A stretch of DNA of 64,000 nucleotides from Prochlorococcus sp. AG-402-I21 (GTDB lineage: Bacteria > Cyanobacteriota > Cyanobacteriia > PCC-6307 > Cyanobiaceae). How positions within the stretch are numbered: the stretch's first letter is position 1; every line of letters starts with the position of its first letter. The stretch spans positions 62,001-126,000 of the forward strand of contig QCHZ01000001.1 in NCBI GenBank assembly GCA_003216955.1. Direction: 5' to 3'. The notes under the pieces were generated by a model that was not told the DNA's origin, made no database searches, and saw nothing but the letters and a program-made list of their open reading frames with translations. This document shows, one piece after another, positions 2,544 to 60,276 of this stretch. A program made the translations under genes and the position numbers.

Positions 2544-4433
2544 TTGAAAACAGATAATAATCAGATAGAGAAATGGATATTACCTAAACCTATAAATGGT
2601 GATGAAATTTATAATTGCAATTTAAACATCACATTACAGAAAGTCTTAATTAGAAGAGGAATAGATATAAGTAATGAACTGGATGAATATTTAAATCCAT
2701 CACAGCTTCCAAATCCTGAAGAACATTTTAATGAATTAAGTATTTCAACGAATAGAATAATAGAAGCCTGTGAAAGAAATGAACAGATAGCTATTTGTGG
2801 CGATTACGATGCAGATGGTATTACAAGCACAGTTCTTTTAGTTGAACTTTTATCAATTCTTGGGGCAAAAGTAAAGCCATATATACCATCAAGACAGGAC
2901 GAGGGATATGGACTTAATATTAATATGATAAATGAAATAAATGATAATAAAGATAGCCTTATAATAACTGTAGATAATGGTATTTCAGCATTTGATGCTA
3001 TTAGCAAAGCAAATGAATATGGTATAGATTTGATTATAACTGATCATCATAAAATACCTAATAGAAATCTAGAAATCTTTTCACTAATACATCCTGAAAG
3101 AACACCTAATAATTCTCCATATAAATATTTAGCAGGTGTTGGAATTGCATATCTATTGGCAAGAAATATTTGTTATAAAAAAAAATATGATATTAACAAA
3201 TCTACCGCAAATGAATTATTTTGTATTGGGACTGTGGCTGATATGGCTCCTTTAAGAGGGGCGAATAGAAAGTGGCTAAAAGAGTTTCTGCCACAGCTAA
3301 ATTCAACGACTAATAAAGGAATTTTATCTATTTTAAAAAAACTATCACTTGATAATATTGCTATATCATCAGATGATATTGGTTATAAAATTGCTCCAAT
3401 AATTAATGCTGTTGGTAGAATTGGTAATCCAGAACATATAATTGATCTTCTAACCAATGATTCAATTTCGACAATAGATAAACTCACTAAAGAATGCTTT
3501 GCCATAAATAGAGAAAGAAAAAGAATTACAACAGTAATTGAACAAGAAGCTTTAGAAATAGCACTAACTGAATATAGAAGTAATAAACAGTTTCTAGTAC
3601 TAACAAATAAAGATTGGCATCCTGGTATAATTGGAATTGTAGCTGCTAGAATGGTTGATAAGTTTAATTTACCTACAGCAATACTTGCAGAAGCAAATGA
3701 TGGTAACTTCAGAGGATCAATTAGATCAAATACTAAGTTAAAGGTTAATCTTGCTTTAGAAGAGTGTAATGATCTTCTCTTGGCTTATGGAGGGCATTCA
3801 GCTGCTGCTGGGTTTTCAATTAAAAAGAAAAATATTCCGATGCTTAAGGAAAGGTTGAATGTAATTGCCCATAGAGAATTTAGAAATATTGATTTAATTA
3901 AATCAATAAAACCTGATGCATACATAAGTCTTATAGATATTAATCTTGATTTCTATAAGGAGCTATGTTTAATAGGTCCATTTGGAATAATGAATCCAAC
4001 ACCGATATTTTGGACGAGAAAATGTAAAATTTTAAATATTTACAAACTAAAAGGTGATCACCTAAAAATAATACTTAATGATGGTACTACTTCAATAGAG
4101 GCAATTAAGTGGAATGGATCTATAGAATTAAAGACAAATGATTTAATTGATGTTGCATATTTCATAGAATTAAATACTTGGAAAAATAGCAAAAAAATTC
4201 AATTAAATATATTAGATATTAAAAAACATAATAAAATAGTAGATTTAAAAATTCATAAGAAGATATATCAATGCCAATTAGATGACAATAGAAATATATT
4301 AATAACAAACGCTAATGGCCAGTGTATTAGTTCAGATCAATATAAAACTTCTAAAAACCTAAGCTCAAGACAAATGTTATTTGCAAAAAAGATTCTTACT
4401 TTTGCAGAGATTGCTCTGGGTAAGGTTGCTTAG
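2544..4433 (+). CDS. recJ: single-stranded-DNA-specific exonuclease RecJ
   Basis: A 5'-3' ssDNA exonuclease of the DHH family acting in recombination and mismatch or base-excision repair. It has 629 residues with the phosphoesterase motifs AICGDYDADGITST (about 90), ITDHHKIP (about 165) and the DHHA1 motif GGHSAAAGFSI (about 415), followed by an OB-like C-terminal domain. The start is TTG; no in-frame ATG precedes the DHH domain. The C-terminus is rich in Lys and Asn, in keeping with local base composition. Confidence 0.93.
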   Translation: MKTDNNQIEKWILPKPINGDEIYNCNLNITLQKVLIRRGIDISNELDEYLNPSQLPNPEEHFNELSISTNRIIEACERNEQIAICGDYDADGITSTVLLVELLSILGAKVKPYIPSRQDEGYGLNINMINEINDNKDSLIITVDNGISAFDAISKANEYGIDLIITDHHKIPNRNLEIFSLIHPERTPNNSPYKYLAGVGIAYLLARNICYKKKYDINKSTANELFCIGTVADMAPLRGANRKWLKEFLPQLNSTTNKGILSILKKLSLDNIAISSDDIGYKIAPIINAVGRIGNPEHIIDLLTNDSISTIDKLTKECFAINRERKRITTVIEQEALEIALTEYRSNKQFLVLTNKDWHPGIIGIVAARMVDKFNLPTAILAEANDGNFRGSIRSNTKLKVNLALEECNDLLLAYGGHSAAAGFSIKKKNIPMLKERLNVIAHREFRNIDLIKSIKPDAYISLIDINLDFYKELCLIGPFGIMNPTPIFWTRKCKILNIYKLKGDHLKIILNDGTTSIEAIKWNGSIELKTNDLIDVAYFIELNTWKNSKKIQLNILDIKKHNKIVDLKIHKKIYQCQLDDNRNILITNANGQCISSDQYKTSKNLSSRQMLFAKKILTFAEIALGKVA

Positions 4434-13630: not shown

Positions 13631-14349
13631 ACATTATCAATAGAACTATTCTTCCTTGAAAAGCCCCAAATGAAAAGAAATAACATTACCAAGAAAAATA
13701 AATATTCGGGTATAACTAATTTGTATAAAACTAATTGAATAATTAACTTTATTCCAATAAGTCCAACAGCAATATAACCAGCTTTTTCTAAATTAATATA
13801 TATCTCCAGCCATTTAATAAATAGTCCTGATGTGAAACGTAATGCGATAACTCCGATAATTGCTCCAGTAATAACTAAAAGGAATTGATCACTGATTGCG
13901 ACAGCTGCGGTAATACTATCTATAGAAAAGGCTAAATCAGTTACTGACAATAAAAGAATTACCTTAAATAATGAAATATTAGATTTTTCAATATTCTCGT
14001 TTATATTTTTATCAGAATCATTATTATTCAAAGATAAAAACTTTGAAATTGAAAGAGAAATCAAATAAATACCACCAATAAGCTTAACTGGCCAAAAGTT
14101 TAAGAAAAATTGAGCCGTAAGAATTACAAGTATTCTTAATAATAAAGCTATAAATATACCGATATTGAGTGCTTTTCTTTGCAGTTCAATATTATTCAGA
14201 TTCTTAGTTATTGAAGCAAGAGCCACTGCGTTATCAGCTGATAATACAAGCTCTAATGAAACGATAACAGGCAAAAGAGGAGCTAGTTCAACCCATCTAT
14301 CAATATCATCTAGTAATGGAGTTAATGATCTAAGAGATGCTGAATCCAT
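13627..14349 (-). CDS. TerC-family integral membrane protein
   Basis: 240 residues with seven probable helices and the family motif [13 protein letters not shown] near residue 32 plus a second acidic motif, [16 protein letters not shown], at about residue 136. TerC/Alx proteins are linked to metal efflux; the plant homologue is needed for thylakoid membrane insertion. Together with the UPF0016 pair it gives this region two manganese-type carriers, though that substrate is inference. Confidence 0.85.
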
Positions 14350-53123: not shown

Positions 53124-53480
53124 TTAACCTTCTCCTTCAGGAACCAAACGGAAGCCTTTGCGTCCCATCTTAATCTCAAAATTATCACCTGGCTTGAGAT
53201 CTAAAAGAGCTGTATAGGCCTTTCCTATCAATAGGTTTCCATTTCCTTGAACGGTAGCCACATAACTAAGCTTTCTTCCACCTTTACCAATTCCACCAGC
53301 ACTTTCAGCCGCCAGGTTAACACCTTTAGCCTCAAGAAGTGCTTCGTAAAAAGCAGTATAGTTAAGACGTTCTCCGCCTCCTTTCTTGGTGGAAACATAT
53401 CCACAAGCTTTAACAAGATCAGATTTTGAGACATCTCCCAAGTCTTTGACCTTGGCTAATAAATCCTTACCAGTGAGCAT
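53124..53480 (-). CDS. cyAbrB-type transcriptional regulator
   Basis: 118 residues. The C-terminal AbrB-like DNA-binding fold is clear: YVATVQGNGNLLIGKAYTAL and LDLKPGDNFEIKMGRKGFRL. The N-terminal part (LTGKDLLAKVKDLGDVSKSD, LVKACGYVSTKKGGGERLNY) is the cyanobacterium-specific extension. cyAbrB proteins are abundant, nucleoid-like regulators of carbon and nitrogen genes. Richer in GC than its surroundings. Confidence 0.92.
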   Translation of the reverse strand: MLTGKDLLAKVKDLGDVSKSDLVKACGYVSTKKGGGERLNYTAFYEALLEAKGVNLAAESAGGIGKGGRKLSYVATVQGNGNLLIGKAYTALLDLKPGDNFEIKMGRKGFRLVPEGEG

Positions 53481-54853: not shown

Positions 54854-55486
54854 TTATCTAGTTAAAGCCAAAGCCCAATTTGGATAGGAAGGGCTAACAC
54901 CCAAGATATTCTTGGTCAAAGAAGAATTGCATTTAGCGACGATTCCATTGGTAGGAAGATTGGAAAACAATTCATTCTTGATCCATTGAGAATGCCATCT
55001 TTTGACCTGCTTAGGATCATCAGTTCTTAGAGTGATAGGTACCTCAAATCCCCAGTTTTGAAGTTGGGTCAAATCTGACAATTCATCACTGTCTGAGCAA
55101 AAGATTTGGAATGCTTTAAATAATAGGGAAGTACTATTATCAATTTTCGAGAATGAGTTAGATATCAATTGCTCTATAGAAATATTGGAATTAGAAGAAG
55201 GTGAATATAAAACGCCTTCCAATTCAACTTCAACTTTTAGAGAGTCATCAATGCTCAAAGGGATAGCATTAATATTCCTAATGTTTTCAATGATCTCGCT
55301 ATAATCTCGAGAATAGGCATCTACTAATTGGCCATATTTATATCTAAGTCCTATTGCGCAACCTTCAATTTTGGGCTGCACAACCATGGTTGATCCTTCT
55401 GGTAACTTTGACCACCAGTTAGAGAAACAATCTTTATCAAGTCCGAGTAACCTCATATATATATCAATAGGAAAATGTCGAGCCAA
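54854..55486 (-). CDS. stand-alone NAD+-DNA-ligase adenylation-core protein, copy 1
   Basis: 210 residues that follow the LigA adenylation domain in order: motif I VQPKIEGCAIGLRYKYGQLV (LigA KxDG; here KIEG, Lys kept), DAYSRDYSEIIENIRNINAI, motif III KVEVELEGVLYSP, LFKAFQI, LTQLQNWGFEVPITL, motif IV LPTNGIVAKCNS (Lys kept, D to N), and motif V YPNWALALTR, where LigA has WAxAFKF and its Lys is missing. The NAD-binding Ia segment and the OB, zinc, HhH and BRCT domains are absent. Probably cannot ligate. It is paralogous to 59590-60276. Confidence 0.75.
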   Translation of the reverse strand: MARHFPIDIYMRLLGLDKDCFSNWWSKLPEGSTMVVQPKIEGCAIGLRYKYGQLVDAYSRDYSEIIENIRNINAIPLSIDDSLKVEVELEGVLYSPSSNSNISIEQLISNSFSKIDNSTSLLFKAFQIFCSDSDELSDLTQLQNWGFEVPITLRTDDPKQVKRWHSQWIKNELFSNLPTNGIVAKCNSSLTKNILGVSPSYPNWALALTR

Positions 55487-55932
55487 GTCACTTCATTAAC
55501 TTTTTTTCTTAAGGAATCATAGGAAATAGAAAGGGGGTTATGGCATATCAACATCAAAAATGCAAAAAGTAAAAAGGCAAAATAACTAAAATATAAAATT
55601 TTGGATATTTCTCTAAAAAAAGAGATTGGAGTAAAAGCCTAATAAATTAAATAGCTTGGATAAAATAAATAATCGGTTTGGACGTGAGACAAATTTATTA
55701 CTAGTAGAGGTTCTTTAAATTATGAGCTAAAAAATGATATGAATACATTGAATAAATCAACATCAAATAGATATGATGTAAAAAAACAGTATATATTCTC
55801 ATCTCTACAATAATTTCATACCACAACTAATAAAAACATATCTTTTTGAATGACGACACCACAGTAATAACAGAAGCAATTCCATGGAATTTAACAACTA
55901 TCTATCAACATAAATAAAAATCAATTAAATGG
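55487..55932. other. gene-poor AT-rich spacer
   Basis: 446 bases with stops in every frame and several A-runs. No stem-loop, repeat or RNA gene recognised. It probably includes the promoter for the ligase-like gene. Confidence 0.5.
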
Positions 55933-56082
55933 ATGCTTTCCAAAGCAGACATCTTTTATACATTCACATGGAGTCGTATAGACGACAATTATATATACAT
56001 ACAAACGAATGATCGGAAAAGAAAGGCATATAAAGAATATGAAGCTAGATTTAGTTGCCAAAGTTTTTTTGACGAAGGATAA
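55933..56082 (+). CDS. possible small protein
   Basis: 49 residues: MLSKADIFYTFTWSRIDDNY, IYIQTNDRKRKAYKEYEARF, SCQSFFDEG. Charged and aromatic-rich; its texture is coding-like, but there is no ribosome-binding site and no recognised relative. Confidence 0.35.
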   Translation: MLSKADIFYTFTWSRIDDNYIYIQTNDRKRKAYKEYEARFSCQSFFDEG

Positions 56083-56170
56083 TCATTGGCAGCCATTTCC
56101 TGATTAAAAAACTATTTCTTGACGTTGAAGAGCATAAGTGTAGGCTTAAAGATATAGTCACTTTTAATAC

Positions 56171-56425
56171 ATGCCAAGGGTAAAAAGAGAAAAGTATCCA
56201 GAAAAGGCTCCATGGGATTTAGGACCATTATCTGAGCATAAATCTCAACCAAATTGGAGGCTAGTAAGAGGATCTGAAATTGTCATTTTTGCTAGAAAAG
56301 GTGAAGACAACCACTATTTCATTATGCAAAGAGACGATAAAGAGCCTATTGAGATCCTTGCATTTCAAGCAAGACTCACATATCAACAACTTTTAGACAA
56401 AGGTTTCAAACTCGAAGTCTCCTAA
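56171..56425 (+). CDS. small hypothetical protein
   Basis: 84 residues: MPRVKREKYPEKAPWDLGPL, EHKSQPNWRLVRGSEIVIFA and then RKGEDNHYFIMQRDDKEPIE. A compact, probably beta-rich domain with a basic N-terminus. ATG at 56171. No family recognised. Confidence 0.6.
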   Translation: MPRVKREKYPEKAPWDLGPLSEHKSQPNWRLVRGSEIVIFARKGEDNHYFIMQRDDKEPIEILAFQARLTYQQLLDKGFKLEVS

Positions 56426-56463
56426 ATTTATTTTTTTGAAAATATAATCCATGTTAAAAAATT

Positions 56464-56664
56464 ATGACTGAATTAGAAGAGCTAGAGGACATAGTTGGAA
56501 GTCTCGAAAACATAGAGCCATTCGGAATTGAGCCAGACTTTAGTTCTCTAGGTCTTGAACCAGCAGAGGTATTAGGATTCCAAACAAAAGAAGAATTGGA
56601 AAATGCTATTAAACTTTTAACAATGGACGTTAAACACAGTCATTTTCTCCTGATTGATATTTAA
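56464..56664 (+). CDS. small acidic hypothetical protein
   Basis: 66 residues: MTELEELEDIVGSLENIEPF, GIEPDFSSLGLEPAEVLGFQ, then TKEELENAIKLLTMDV. Acidic, helical. 38 nt downstream of the preceding gene on the same strand. Confidence 0.55.
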   Translation: MTELEELEDIVGSLENIEPFGIEPDFSSLGLEPAEVLGFQTKEELENAIKLLTMDVKHSHFLLIDI

Positions 56665-57195
56665 ATGATATATATAAATTAAATATTTAGTTATACTCAA
56701 CTTAGGTAATTAATAAATGAAAATTACTTAGAGCCCTATTTTTTCAATAAACAATATACCAGAATCAACTGATGGGCTAGACCAAATAGCCCTAAAGAAT
56801 AGATCATTTGAAGAGAATAATTAAGAAATGGATTAATCTGATCAACTTATCTAATAGTTAATTTTTATAATATTTAAAATATAAAAAGCTAGAAAACTTA
56901 CCTAAATAAAAAATTATTAGGCAAAGGAAATAGATTTTTGAGTGTTTAAACTAAAAGCTAGTCTATTATGTGTAAACGTTAATTAAGTATTAAGTCAAAA
57001 GAGTGCATCGTTAAATATGAACATAATTGAACTTAAAAATGGGGAAACCATGTAAATTAAGATCTTATGTTTGAGTTTTTCGAAGCACTGTTTCTAAATA
57101 ATCAAGCCTTAACTTATTTTCCAAGTTTAAGCTGACTTATTGTGCATAAATGACAACAAACTAATTATTTCTTCATTGTCAAATCTCTTTAATAC
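56665..57195. other. 531-bp spacer with one interrupted short frame
   Basis: Mostly AT-rich sequence with frequent stops. The one protein-like stretch (56717-56824) is interrupted by an in-frame TAG at codon 5. No RNA gene or repeat recognised. Confidence 0.5.
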
Positions 57196-57306
57196 TTATG
57201 CCCAGTCAGTATCTTCTAAAAGACATGAATAATCAGAACTATCAAAAAAAGTATCTTCATTGAGAAGATCATCGACTTCTGCACGAAGCCAGTAACTTAG
57301 AGCCAT
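57196..57306 (-). CDS. possible small protein downstream of the hli array
   Basis: 36 residues: MALSYWLRAEVDDLLNEDTF, FDSSDYSCLLEDTDWA. Acidic, soluble. ATG at 57306, 18 nt after the last hli stop, so it may be the last cistron of that transcript. Confidence 0.45.
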   Translation of the reverse strand: MALSYWLRAEVDDLLNEDTFFDSSDYSCLLEDTDWA

Positions 57307-57324
57307 TGTGATAAAAAAATAGGG

Positions 57325-57444
57325 TTAAACGAAACCTGGAATAATCCAGCCAGTAAATCCATAATTAACTACAGCTGCAAGAAGTCCCATCATCGCAAGA
57401 CGACCATTCATTATTTCAGCTGTCTTCCAGTAGCTTTTATCCAT
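57325..57444 (-). CDS. hli: high-light-inducible protein, array member 5
   Basis: 39 residues: MDKSYWKTAEIMNGRLAMMG, LLAAVVNYGFTGWIIPGFV. The chlorophyll-binding helix motif AEIMNGRLAMMG (ExxNGRxAM) and the C-terminal IIPG are present. Hli proteins protect photosystems by binding pigments. Its start overlaps the upstream hli stop by one base (TAATG). Confidence 0.9.
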   Translation of the reverse strand: MDKSYWKTAEIMNGRLAMMGLLAAVVNYGFTGWIIPGFV

Positions 57445-57590
57445 TAGACAAACCCTGGAATAATCTGACCAGTTGTCGCATATGCACCTATGAGAGCAAT
57501 ACAACCAAAAAGAGCTGCGTAGCCATTAAGCCTCTCAGCTGTAATTTTTTCTGGATCAATTTTTCTTGAAGTGTTGATTTGATTAGTCAT
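57444..57590 (-). CDS. hli: high-light-inducible protein, array member 4
   Basis: 48 residues: a charged start (MTNQINTSRKIDPEKITAER), then the helix LNGYAALFGCIALIGAYATT and GQIIPGFV. It shares a 54-nt identical block with member 3 at a 146-bp offset, so they are recent tandem duplicates. The ATG at 57590 overlaps the upstream stop by one base. NGY replaces the usual NGR. Confidence 0.92.
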   Translation of the reverse strand: MTNQINTSRKIDPEKITAERLNGYAALFGCIALIGAYATTGQIIPGFV

Positions 57591-57736
57591 TACACAACAC
57601 CTGGAATAATTTGACCTGTTGTTAGATATGCACCTATGAGAGCAATACAACCAAAAAGAGCTGCGTAGCCATTAAGCCTTTCGGCAATTACTTTGCCTTC
57701 TTCGACACGTGGAGTTTCTGTAGTTTGGTTTTTCAT
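57590..57736 (-). CDS. hli: high-light-inducible protein, array member 3
   Basis: 48 residues: MKNQTTETPRVEEGKVIAER, LNGYAALFGCIALIGAYLTT, GQIIPGVV. The TTGQIIPG ending is the mark of the multicopy, phage-associated hli class in Prochlorococcus. The start overlaps the upstream stop by one base. Confidence 0.92.
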   Translation of the reverse strand: MKNQTTETPRVEEGKVIAERLNGYAALFGCIALIGAYLTTGQIIPGVV

Positions 57737-57855
57737 TAAACGACACCTGGGATTAGTTGACCGGTTGATAGGTAGATACCTGTTAGTAGAACGAATGCCA
57801 TCATGGCTGGCCTGCCGATGCTTCTTTCTAGGATTGTTTTGTTAGATGGTTGCAT
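57736..57855 (-). CDS. hli: high-light-inducible protein, array member 2
   Basis: 39 residues: MQPSNKTILERSIGRPAMMA, FVLLTGIYLSTGQLIPGVV. Short Hli with ERSIGRPAMM motif and the TGQLIPG ending. ATG at 57855; 20 nt downstream of member 1. Confidence 0.92.
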   Translation of the reverse strand: MQPSNKTILERSIGRPAMMAFVLLTGIYLSTGQLIPGVV

Positions 57856-57875
57856 TGTGATGAATAAGTATTGGT

Positions 57876-57983
57876 TTAGAAAATTCCAGGAATGATTTGA
57901 CCTGTAGTTGCGTATGCGCCAAAGGCTGCTACGAAGCCAAGCATTGCTGCCCAACCGTTGAACTTTTCTGCTTCAGGAGTCAT
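57876..57983 (-). CDS. hli: high-light-inducible protein, array member 1
   Basis: 35 residues: MTPEAEKFNGWAAMLGFVAA, FGAYATTGQIIPGIF. First gene of the array; the AEKFNGWAAMLGF helix and TTGQIIPG ending are typical. The RpaB-like repeat lies 30-58 nt upstream of its ATG. Confidence 0.93.
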   Translation of the reverse strand: MTPEAEKFNGWAAMLGFVAAFGAYATTGQIIPGIF

Positions 57984-58012
57984 AATGAAATCCAAAATGT
58001 TTATATGAATAA

Positions 58013-58041
58013 ATGTAAAGCAAATATTAATCTATGTAAAG
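58013..58041 (-). promoter_or_regulatory. HLR1/RpaB-like direct repeat upstream of the hli array
   Basis: On the minus strand CTTTACAT occurs at 58041-58034 and 58020-58013, 21 bp apart, about 30 nt before the first hli ATG. Each is followed after 2 bases by a weaker half-site (TTAATATT and TTCATATA), as in HLR1, bound by RpaB at high-light genes. The spacing is the same as before the NmrA gene. Confidence 0.5.
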
Positions 58042-58238
58042 TCCAAGAAGTACGGCTTGCCTCATTAATATAGGATTTGGGTACAACAGTTACAAATTTA
58101 ACCTGTAATGACAGTAACTTTGGCTACACAAGATTGATTCTTACTCAAAAAATTATTTGATGAAAATATTAAAACACTAATCAAAAGTGTGACACTAGTG
58201 TGAAAGATTTCGAATACTAACTTTTCTTTTATAAGATT

Positions 58239-58532
58239 TCATTTATAAAAAAATTCAATTTCTTTAACTTTTAATCCATCCCAACCAGCTTTGATCAAAC
58301 GTGAATTAAGGGTGTCCTGATCATAGTGTTTGGCTCCCGTTTTAACTATGCGGTTTCGCATTGATTTCTTAACACCACTTCTTTTTCGTGCATTTTCTTT
58401 TTCCATGACCTCTCTATACAGGTCTAGCATTTCAGAAGGAATAGGACTTCCATCAAGATCTAAACCAGCTTTGATGGCGTTATCAATTGCATCTGGACCA
58501 GAAAAATCCACAACTAAAAAAAGAGTATTCAC
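58239..58532 (-). CDS. conserved hypothetical protein
   Basis: 97 residues from the GTG at 58532, chosen because GGAGAGGAG lies 6 nt upstream; a TTG at 58550 would run through that site. MNTLFLVVDFSGPDAIDNAI, then a basic helical middle (EKENARKRSGVKKSMRNRIV) and a C-terminal LIKAGWDGLKVKEIEFFYK. Possibly RNA-binding because of the basic patch. No family name. Confidence 0.6.
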   Translation of the reverse strand: MNTLFLVVDFSGPDAIDNAIKAGLDLDGSPIPSEMLDLYREVMEKENARKRSGVKKSMRNRIVKTGAKHYDQDTLNSRLIKAGWDGLKVKEIEFFYK

Positions 58533-58601
58533 TATATTCTCCTCTCCCAATAAGCAAAATTTTCTAGCTGTCTAGTAAAAAGAACAAAAATTATCGGAAA
58601 A

Positions 58602-59234
58602 TTAATCTAAGAGATAAATAACTGAAAGATTATTAGCTGGCATCGCAATCACCTTGTCTTGTCTAAATCCATTTTCTAGTGCAAGTTCATTAACTTCATC
58701 TAATTGGCGGAGACCCCAAAGTGGGTTCTGTAATTTTAAGGATTGATCAAAATTCAAGTTGCTTTGAGAGGTTTGGACTTGCTTTCTTAAGAATGGACCA
58801 TAGAGCATCAAAAAATTATTCTGATTTAAATGACTTTTTGATTCTTCAAACAAAGCTTGTGTACAAGTCCATGGGGAGATATGAATCATGTTTATACATA
58901 CAATTCCTTTAATCAGTGATCTAATCTGTTTAGTTATTGGCCAAGGACGCATTTCGACATCAAGATCAAGCGGTTCAGGCATTTTTGAAAAAAGCCCCTC
59001 ATGCTTAATCCATGAATTAATACTTTTTCTATGTACTAATTCAGGATCACTCGTTTGCCAGATAATTGATGGGAATATTTGTTGGAAGAATACTCCGTGT
59101 TCTCCACTACCACTAGCTATTTCTAAAAGCAAGCCGTTAGAAGAAATATAATTACTCAAAACTGCGGCAATGGAATCACGATTTCTTGTCGTCGCAGGGA
59201 AATTTAATCGATTGTCTAGATTTATATATTCCAT
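58602..59234 (-). CDS. DUF938 methyltransferase-like protein
   Basis: 210 residues. LNFPATTRNRDSIAAVLSNY, the SAM loop LLLEIASGSGEHGVFFQQIF, and SPWTCTQALFEESKSHLNQN fit DUF938, a class I methyltransferase family. The substrate is unknown. The start overlaps the preceding zinc-ribbon gene by 13 nt. Confidence 0.85.
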   Translation of the reverse strand: MEYINLDNRLNFPATTRNRDSIAAVLSNYISSNGLLLEIASGSGEHGVFFQQIFPSIIWQTSDPELVHRKSINSWIKHEGLFSKMPEPLDLDVEMRPWPITKQIRSLIKGIVCINMIHISPWTCTQALFEESKSHLNQNNFLMLYGPFLRKQVQTSQSNLNFDQSLKLQNPLWGLRQLDEVNELALENGFRQDKVIAMPANNLSVIYLLD

Positions 59235-59497
59235 GTTTTATCAATAGTTAATAGGACTAATGATTCAGAGTTGTTTGGATATTTATCCTTAGTAAAATCA
59301 TTAATAACAAAAATAATCATTATTAGTAAAGGAGCTAGAAATGCTGATGCGGCTAATACTCCAAAAATTCTTCTTGAATTTAGTAAAGGTTTTTTTATTA
59401 ATGGGTCTCCGCAAAGGCCACAAATCAAGACACCGTCACTCCTGGTTTTATGAAATTGATAACGAGAAGAGCAAAAAGGGCAATAATATCGACTCAT
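59222..59497 (-). CDS. zinc-ribbon membrane protein
   Basis: 91 residues. Four Cys in CPFCSSRYQFHKTRSDGVLI-CGLCGDP form a zinc ribbon, followed by one helix (FGVLAASAFLAPLLIMIIFV) and a short external tail. Similar small proteins are common in picocyanobacteria. It overlaps the DUF938 start, so the two are probably co-translated. Confidence 0.75.
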   Translation of the reverse strand: MSRYYCPFCSSRYQFHKTRSDGVLICGLCGDPLIKKPLLNSRRIFGVLAASAFLAPLLIMIIFVINDFTKDKYPNNSESLVLLTIDKTWNI

Positions 59498-59589
59498 TTC
59501 TGATCTTAAAAACCAAAATTAACTACGCTAAATATTCCTAGATAGGATTATGAAACGCAAACTAAATTGATTAAATGTAGGACTTAAGG

Positions 59590-60276
59590 ATGAGAAAAGA
59601 TACTCATGGATCAGATCATCTAATAAGGAATCTTCAGAGAATATCTCCTGAAAATTCTATCTTTAATGTCAATTCTGGAAGAAAAGCTTTCTTATCATTA
59701 GGGCAAGGTGAAATTCATGAATGGTTGGATTCACTTCTTCCAAATACAAGAATAATTTTAGAACCAAAAATAATTGGATCAGGTATTGGCATTCAATATT
59801 TCAACGGGAAAATAAACAAGGCAATAGATGAAAATAATCAAGACATAACAGAAAGCGTAAGGTCTCTAAAAAATATTCCTAAAATCATACGGATAAAAAA
59901 CAGAATGGAAATACGAGGGGTTATATACGATGAAAAAAATACATCAAATAAAAATATTTATACCGAATTAGTAGAAATTCAGAATTATAAACCACAGTTA
60001 ACAAGACTTAGATTCTGTGCTTTTCAAATATTTCATTGCAATATCAATCATTTTCAATCACTTAAAGAATTAAAAAAACTCAATTTTGAAATTCCTCAAA
60101 CTGAATTTACAAACTTTATTTCAGATATAGAAATCTATCTTAAATGTTGGAAAGAGGGTAAATTATTTAAAAGCTATCCAACAAACGGAATAGTATTGAA
60201 AATCAATTCAAGAAAATTGCAAAAGTATCTTGGAGAAAATAATCTAACTATTCATTGGGCATACGCCATAAATTAA
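59590..60276 (+). CDS. stand-alone NAD+-DNA-ligase adenylation-core protein, copy 2
   Basis: 228 residues. After a LigA-like lead-in (SGRKAFLSLGQGEIHEWLDS), motif I is ILEPKIIGSGIGIQYFNGKI (Lys kept, Asp to Ile), then NQDITESVRSLKNIPK, motif III NRMEIRGVIYDEKN, LRFCAFQIFH, LKELKKLNFEIPQ, motif IV YPTNGIVLKINSRKLQKYLG, and it ends at motif V TIHWAYAIN, before the LigA Lys. No other ligase domain is present. Paralogue of 54854-55486, with the same truncation points. It overlaps the next small gene by one base. Confidence 0.75.
   Translation: MRKDTHGSDHLIRNLQRISPENSIFNVNSGRKAFLSLGQGEIHEWLDSLLPNTRIILEPKIIGSGIGIQYFNGKINKAIDENNQDITESVRSLKNIPKIIRIKNRMEIRGVIYDEKNTSNKNIYTELVEIQNYKPQLTRLRFCAFQIFHCNINHFQSLKELKKLNFEIPQTEFTNFISDIEIYLKCWKEGKLFKSYPTNGIVLKINSRKLQKYLGENNLTIHWAYAIN

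Follow-up and report, generated by a model that had tools for sequence, protein, structure and literature searches.

Two LigA-type pseudo-domains retained in a Prochlorococcus genome and their relatives near mobile elements

The 64,000-nucleotide stretch of the Prochlorococcus sp. AG-402-I21 genome analysed here (contig QCHZ01000001.1, positions 62,001 to 126,000; hereafter the window) carries two genes, copy 1 and copy 2, whose products have the fold of the adenylation domain of LigA, the NAD+-dependent DNA ligase, and stand alone. LigA is usually treated as one essential multi-domain bacterial enzyme. Both copies are under purifying selection, both have lost catalytic residues of the ligase, and their kin are found near mobile elements. 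We regard it as fairly probable that the copies are domesticated pseudo-enzymes derived from a mobile gene family, here called mini-LigA, and that they bind a nucleotide or a DNA 5'-phosphate through two invariant lysines.

Fold of the two copies and the mini-LigA family

Open reading frames (ORFs) are present at 54854-55486 on the minus strand and at 59590-60276 on the plus strand, as listed in an earlier reading made from the letters alone (the sequence-only reading). Copy 1 most likely begins at the ATG at 55456 rather than at the TTG at 55486, because a Met is found there in all 14 aligned sequences (Table 1). Both ORFs match PF01653 (E = 1.9e-15 for copy 1 and 1.8e-14 for copy 2), and in a sequence search of the PDB, DNA ligases make up 15 of the 17 sequences matched by copy 1 and all 22 of those matched by copy 2. 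AlphaFold models built from 47-row alignments have a mean predicted local distance difference test (pLDDT) score of 92.5 for copy 1 and 83.2 for copy 2, with residues 1-8 and parts of 120-135 of copy 2 below 50. Foldseek pairs both models with LigA adenylation domains (best E = 1.5e-15 for copy 1 and 2.3e-14 for copy 2), and residues 1-200 of copy 1 align with these domains at Z = 23.6 and a root-mean-square deviation of 2.0 over 198 residues, a Z-score comparison (VIA-align list) that speaks for the listed families only. In the structural alignment, residue 1 of copy 1 pairs with residues 74-87 of the LigA chains. The LigA fold proposed in the sequence-only reading is thus borne out by the PF01653 matches and by the models, neither of which shows a different fold.

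Motifs I, III, IV and V follow in the order of the LigA adenylation domain (PF01653; PDB 7k72, 1tae and 5tt5), whose fold copy 1 shares, and the KxDG variants reported earlier were the same when read again (Table 1). The motif-by-motif alignment proposed earlier holds in that motif III does align, but its Glu is lost in both copies; similarly, the Lys of motif IV is kept in both, as had been said, but the Asp is replaced by Asn. Both frames had been described as ending just before the Lys of motif V, but they do reach this motif, with Thr or Asn in place of the Lys. Segment Ia, which binds NAD+ in LigA and had been thought lacking from both, is absent from copy 1, whereas copy 2 retains a remnant of its last part (44% over 34 aa against L102). 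From the full set of KxDG, motif III Glu, motif IV Lys and motif V Lys, the copies keep only the lysines of motifs I and IV. Neither copy has the downstream ligase domains, in agreement with the sequence-only reading: both ORFs stop at motif V, and none of the OB, Zn, HhH and BRCT domains of LigA was found downstream.

Table 1. Features of the window around the two copies
Feature	Coordinates	Strand	Remarks
Copy 1, LigA-type nucleotidyltransferase (NTase) pseudo-domain, 200 aa	54854..55456	-	KIEG, LEGV (Glu lost), NGIVAK, WALALT
Copy 2, LigA-type NTase pseudo-domain, 228 aa, with remnant of the Ia end	59590..60276	+	KIIG, RGVI (Glu lost), NGIVLK, WAYAIN
Membrane peptide ORF, 48 aa	60276..60422	+	ATG overlaps copy 2 stop (TAATG)
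DUF938 (PF06080) gene beside copy 2	58602..59234	-	relative near intact mini-LigA in G052 (L102)
Copy 1 neighbour, 118 aa, synteny anchor	53124..53480	-	99-100% identity in 8/8 congeners compared

Both copies can be assigned to mini-LigA, a family of OB-less proteins (Ia plus NTase, ending at motif V) found in Cyanobiaceae and in viral contigs. The family was collected as frames shorter than 420 aa that match a hidden Markov model (HMM) of intact members; with loci L001-L065, frames below 120 aa and frames containing X set aside, 174 distinct short frames came from loci L066 and up and from the window. The frame ends within 10 residues of the motif V Lys column in 168 of them and within 30 residues in 170, and L251, L252, L260 and L287, which extend 79-85 residues beyond motif V, were omitted. 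The remaining 170 distinct OB-less sequences comprise 33 from IMG/VR viral contigs and 137 from cells. Motif I Lys and Asp, motif III Glu, motif IV Lys and motif V Lys are all kept in 31 of the 33 viral sequences; 80 of the 137 cellular ones keep motif I Lys and Asp, motif III Glu and motif IV Lys, and 37 of these 80 also keep motif V Lys. Among the frames with the four catalytic residues, the Tyr and Asp of Ia stand at the expected places in 31 of 31 viral and 76 of 80 cellular sequences.

The window copies, which are stand-alone frames ending near motif V, score 188 and 201 bits on the family HMM. Full-length LigA was rejected as their nearest kin, as the same model gives it at most 110 bits at the loci and at most 135 bits among the matches listed for the phylum; the weakest short frames (52 bits) fall within the LigA score range. 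Among the matches listed for 386 genomes of the phylum, short frames are confined to the window's family. A search of the window's own genome found one full LigA (690-aa frame, C3) besides the two copies. The matching truncation of the copies, which had been taken to suggest a selected non-ligase role, is the ground state of the mini-LigA family; the selection itself is upheld (see below), and the non-ligase role is likely by inference. No description of mini-LigA was found in the literature searched, a coverage outside which subscription papers mostly fall.

The split NAD+ ligases of phages T5 and PR1 (subunit A; PDB 9hu3, 9i5i) resemble mini-LigA in carrying Ia and NTase as a separate gene, and they are among the nearest named phage relatives of the viral mini-LigA L191, which shows 29.0% identity to subunit A of T5 and 31.4% to that of PR1. 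However, T5 subunit A carries an OB domain (PF03120, 78 bits, as a control) and is followed by the gene of subunit B, whereas mini-LigA stops at motif V. Because the OB domain is missing from the same chain, membership of the window copies and of their family among the split ligases was rejected. A role as accessory subunits, in which the copies would associate with LigA of the cell itself or with a distinct protein bearing OB, HhH or BRCT, is conceivable; such phage systems do exist among the named relatives, and the window genome has a full LigA. We consider this doubtful, given the lack of OB in a family that almost uniformly ends at motif V, and given that neither 12 viral records, which are fragments, nor 84 of 87 genomes of g18, another Prochlorococcus-type genus (e.g. 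G095), yielded an OB domain; no search was aimed at a separate HhH or BRCT subunit.

Parts of LigA that live alone are also known as the solo NLig-Ia domains, which the accessible part of PMC9503650 reports in 81 phages, without NTase. In comparison, copy 1 is the opposite half and resides in a cell, and the same part of that paper says that cellular genomes offer no precedent for Ia split from the ligase core. Lig W (Pmar-Lig) and other small ATP ligases are likewise small DNA ligases of Prochlorococcus, but according to the accessible parts of PMC6698739 and PMC12133292 they are of the ATP type with an OB domain, and belong to a different family from mini-LigA.

Catalytic residues and retention of the copies

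Residue states were scored on a family alignment of 14 copy-1 and 19 copy-2 sequences, the window included. The lysines of motifs I and IV are present in all 33 sequences, the Glu of motif III in none, and the Asp of motif IV and the Lys of motif V in 1 of 33 each. At the third position of KxDG, copy 1 has Asp in 6, Glu in 6 and Val in 2 of its 14 sequences, and copy 2 has Ile in all 19. By established ligase chemistry, a protein without these residues should not form the lysine-AMP intermediate. The window copies are probably catalytically dead, because motif III Glu is lost throughout and motif V Lys in 32 of 33 sequences; the alignment strongly points to a loss of activity, and given the same two losses the suggestion of an adenylation-like enzyme in the sequence-only reading is not supported. 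Residual enzymes, which would use the two conserved lysines and some other acid replacing the motif III Glu to transfer AMP, taken from ATP or a different donor, to a target other than DNA, are unlikely. The invariant motif I Lys would suit them, as would a Glu two residues ahead of the lost one in copy 1 (VELEG) and the weak matches of 9 of the 47 relatives in A4 to RNA_ligase PF09414, but the residues of motifs III, IV and V are lost in 33, 32 and 32 of the 33 sequences, Ia is lost or broken, and the third position of motif I varies in copy 1 and is fixed as Ile in copy 2.

Orthologues were searched in 201 genomes of the family, including nine other genomes of the window's genus. Eight of these nine congeners have both copies, with 77-90% identity for copy 1 and 65-83% for copy 2, and the gene order around both agrees in the eight, although G185 carries them on different contigs. 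The remaining congener, G196, lacks both copies and the DUF938 neighbour as well, so that either a gap or a deletion spanning this entire stretch may account for their absence. Compared over 28 pairs from 8 genomes (Nei-Gojobori), the ratio of nonsynonymous to synonymous changes (dN/dS) has a median of 0.139 in copy 1 and 0.384 in copy 2; four neighbouring genes in the same genomes give medians of 0.082, 0.134, 0.188 and 0.322. Over all close sequences, dN/dS is 0.131 for copy 1 (14 sequences) and 0.394 for copy 2 (19 sequences). The frames are open in every one of these sequences, whereas a simple neutral simulation gives a mean of 3.4 to 9.4 stops at 0.1 to 0.3 substitutions per site. Both copies are under purifying selection at fixed chromosomal places, as the retention of two copies had suggested from the start, and the close relatives show no signs of neutral decay. 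That the copies are slow neutral relics of integrated elements retained by chance is very improbable, because the frames stay open where stops are predicted, synteny is kept and dN/dS lies near or just above the range of the neighbouring genes, even though their kin stand near mobile-element features, broken family members do exist (9 stops in the G052 copy of L103 and 5 in the G135 copy of L028) and dN/dS of copy 2 is the higher of the two.

Origin of the copies and the context of their relatives

A tree of 71 rows was made with a quick method from 64 of the 174 short frames (those above 82% redundancy or below 185 aa were dropped) and 7 LigA sequences; its outgroup is not clean, with one row, by the drawing L251, on the wrong side. 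In this tree copy 1 clusters with L095 and L098, the tRNA-Pro type (Shimodaira-Hasegawa-like approximate likelihood ratio test, SH-aLRT, 96), and copy 2 falls within a 35-row group with L102, L069 and the g18 types (SH-aLRT 100). Forcing both copies into one clade costs 47.8 log-likelihood units. An independent origin of the two copies is favoured, though not proven, and a single duplicated gene as the source of both is less likely because they fall on different branches.

Intact-type mobile copies are found in the window's genus in G130 (two), G161, G173 and G185, that of G173 being without an in-frame Ia. Copies of the 3' end of tRNA-Pro(TGG), 42-46 bp long, lie near intact-type members in L095 (two places), L097 and L098, and a whole tRNA-Pro gene lies 36 bases from mini-LigA in L096 and about 5 kb away in L083. 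The stop of an integrase-like ORF in L095 (PF00589, E = 5.9e-06, with 26.6 bits just under the cut-off of 27.1) overlaps one mini-LigA start (ATGA), and a phage capsid gene (PF05065) is found within the same stretch; the integrase of L083 matches phrog_1. The ORFs at the equivalent position in L095 (4540-5922) and L098 match neither Pfam nor PHROG, so that to call them integrases is a guess. The elements around mini-LigA presumably resemble the tycheposons of Prochlorococcus. In L097 the Ia segment lies in a different frame directly upstream of an NTase with intact motifs, possibly an intermediate of Ia loss. In the related genome G052, the intact mini-LigA of L102 is near a DUF938 gene, with a weak C-terminal match to PF00589 (22.3 bits) between them. 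Separately, L095 was seen to hold apparent tandem integrative elements at tRNA-Pro(TGG) repeats (4329-4373 and 14051-14094), with integrase-like, capsid and two mini-LigA genes.

It is also evident that mini-LigA occurs in a phage replication module: on viral contig L191 it lies among helicase, DNA methyltransferase, endonuclease, primase/helicase, exonuclease and minor tail genes. With L191 as query, 722 records match; the best 40 of the 722 include T5-type subunit A, and the top bit score among the matches listed is that of the NAD ligase of Pseudomonas phage D6 (96 bits). Known isolate phages as the direct source of copy 2 were rejected, as it finds 7 matches among 50,697 records, with 23-27% identity; one cyanophage match was inspected (H6), and it falls within a 669-aa ligase coding sequence. 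Another viral mini-LigA occupies 6188-6937 of L245 (IMGVR_UViG_2716884731_000001), close to genes for an exonuclease and a minor tail protein. In the tree it sits beside L190 and L192 within the g18-type branch, a placement that suggests virus-host exchange.

Genus g18, of which 87 genomes at least 90% complete were taken, carries the same two mini-LigA types as Prochlorococcus MIT 9107, MIT 9201 and MIT 9401, which we take to be high-light strains. PF01653 is matched in 86 of the 87 genomes, with LigA-like scores in three (G560, G561 and G578) and mini-LigA-like ones (best E 4e-23 or weaker) in the other 83, and the LigA OB domain PF03120 was found in these three and not in the other 84. ATP-dependent ligase matches are present in 85 of the 87 (none in G578 and G586). 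PF01068 is matched in all 16 g18 genomes tested and not in the window genome, and the six genomes tested outside g18 carry LigA and lack PF01068 matches. LigA may have been displaced in g18, and mini-LigA seems not to need it, since its matches persist in genomes without the LigA OB domain; no statement of LigA loss was found in the literature searched. The gene annotated as NAD-dependent ligase in g18-type strains may be mini-LigA. The same may apply to the 'NAD-dependent DNA ligase' genes named in Prochlorococcus gene sets in the accessible parts of PMC11357015 and PMC3686209. In its accessible part, PMC3940434 places the loss of an ATP-dependent ligase of Synechococcus WH8102 early in Prochlorococcus, which does not readily agree with the ATP ligases found in g18. 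Some Prochlorococcus strains do have LigA, because P. marinus LigA is used in PMC3397958, and Pmar-Lig accompanies the replicative NAD-dependent enzyme in some strains (PMC6698739), as far as the accessible parts of the two papers go.

Neighbouring genes and a possible role of the copies

Translational coupling of copy 2 to a small membrane peptide had been proposed, and the start and stop do overlap (Table 1), but the coupling is probably incidental, because similar peptides occur in genomes showing no mini-LigA. Such a peptide is matched in 13 of 59 family genomes outside the window's genus, and in the peptide-bearing G012, G043 and G050 a full LigA is the sole match to copy 2 among the matches listed; a functional link between the two was rejected on this ground. 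The DUF938 gene on the other side of copy 2 suggests that this locus is homologous to the L102 locus of G052, because a relative of it lies near the intact mini-LigA there. The 118-aa protein near copy 1, which we assume to be AbrB-like, is conserved far above most surrounding genes. At 57325-57954, four small minus-strand ORFs stand in a row, partly overlapping in different frames, and end in GWIIPGFV or TGQ(I/L)IPG(F/V)V, presumably like high-light-inducible proteins. A promoter and terminator scan showed no excess over shuffles.

We propose that both copies were left behind by elements bearing mini-LigA, and that they then lost catalysis and were retained as non-catalytic binders of phosphate or nucleic acid. 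The lysines of motifs I and IV in the old pocket would hold a nucleotide or the 5'-phosphate of a polynucleotide, and the protein would sit at nicks or ends of DNA, or on a partner of intact mini-LigA, and leave them unadenylated. A plausible use, offered purely as a proposal, would be interference with, or regulation of, the intact mini-LigA that arrives on incoming elements.

Several observations weigh against this account. A single origin of both copies is not rejected by the approximately unbiased (AU) test (p = 0.059), and the faster evolution of copy 2 (dN/dS 0.38) is compatible with relaxed constraint. The motif I Asp is still present in 6 of the 14 copy-1 sequences, which formally leaves room for residual chemistry. 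Moreover, intact-type copies occur in four of the nine other congeners and none was found in the window's own genome, so that a role in interference would have no resident target there.

A broader picture can be put forward tentatively, and we think it rather less likely to hold as a whole: mini-LigA would be a mobile adenylylating module that uses NAD+, lacks an OB clamp and travels with phages and with elements integrating at tRNA-Pro in marine picocyanobacteria. It would have outlived LigA in one Prochlorococcus genus, and two of its lineages would have been independently disarmed into host 'two-lysine' binders in the window's genus, perhaps directed against the source elements. The two window genes look disarmed yet preserved, which suggests that part of the DNA-sealing machinery has been reused for another job. 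The catalytic half of LigA is found alone in abundant ocean cyanobacteria and in viral contigs, in both intact and disarmed form, and it persists in g18. The role of an adenylation module without OB, and the disarming and reuse of mobile-element genes by their hosts, thereby become testable.

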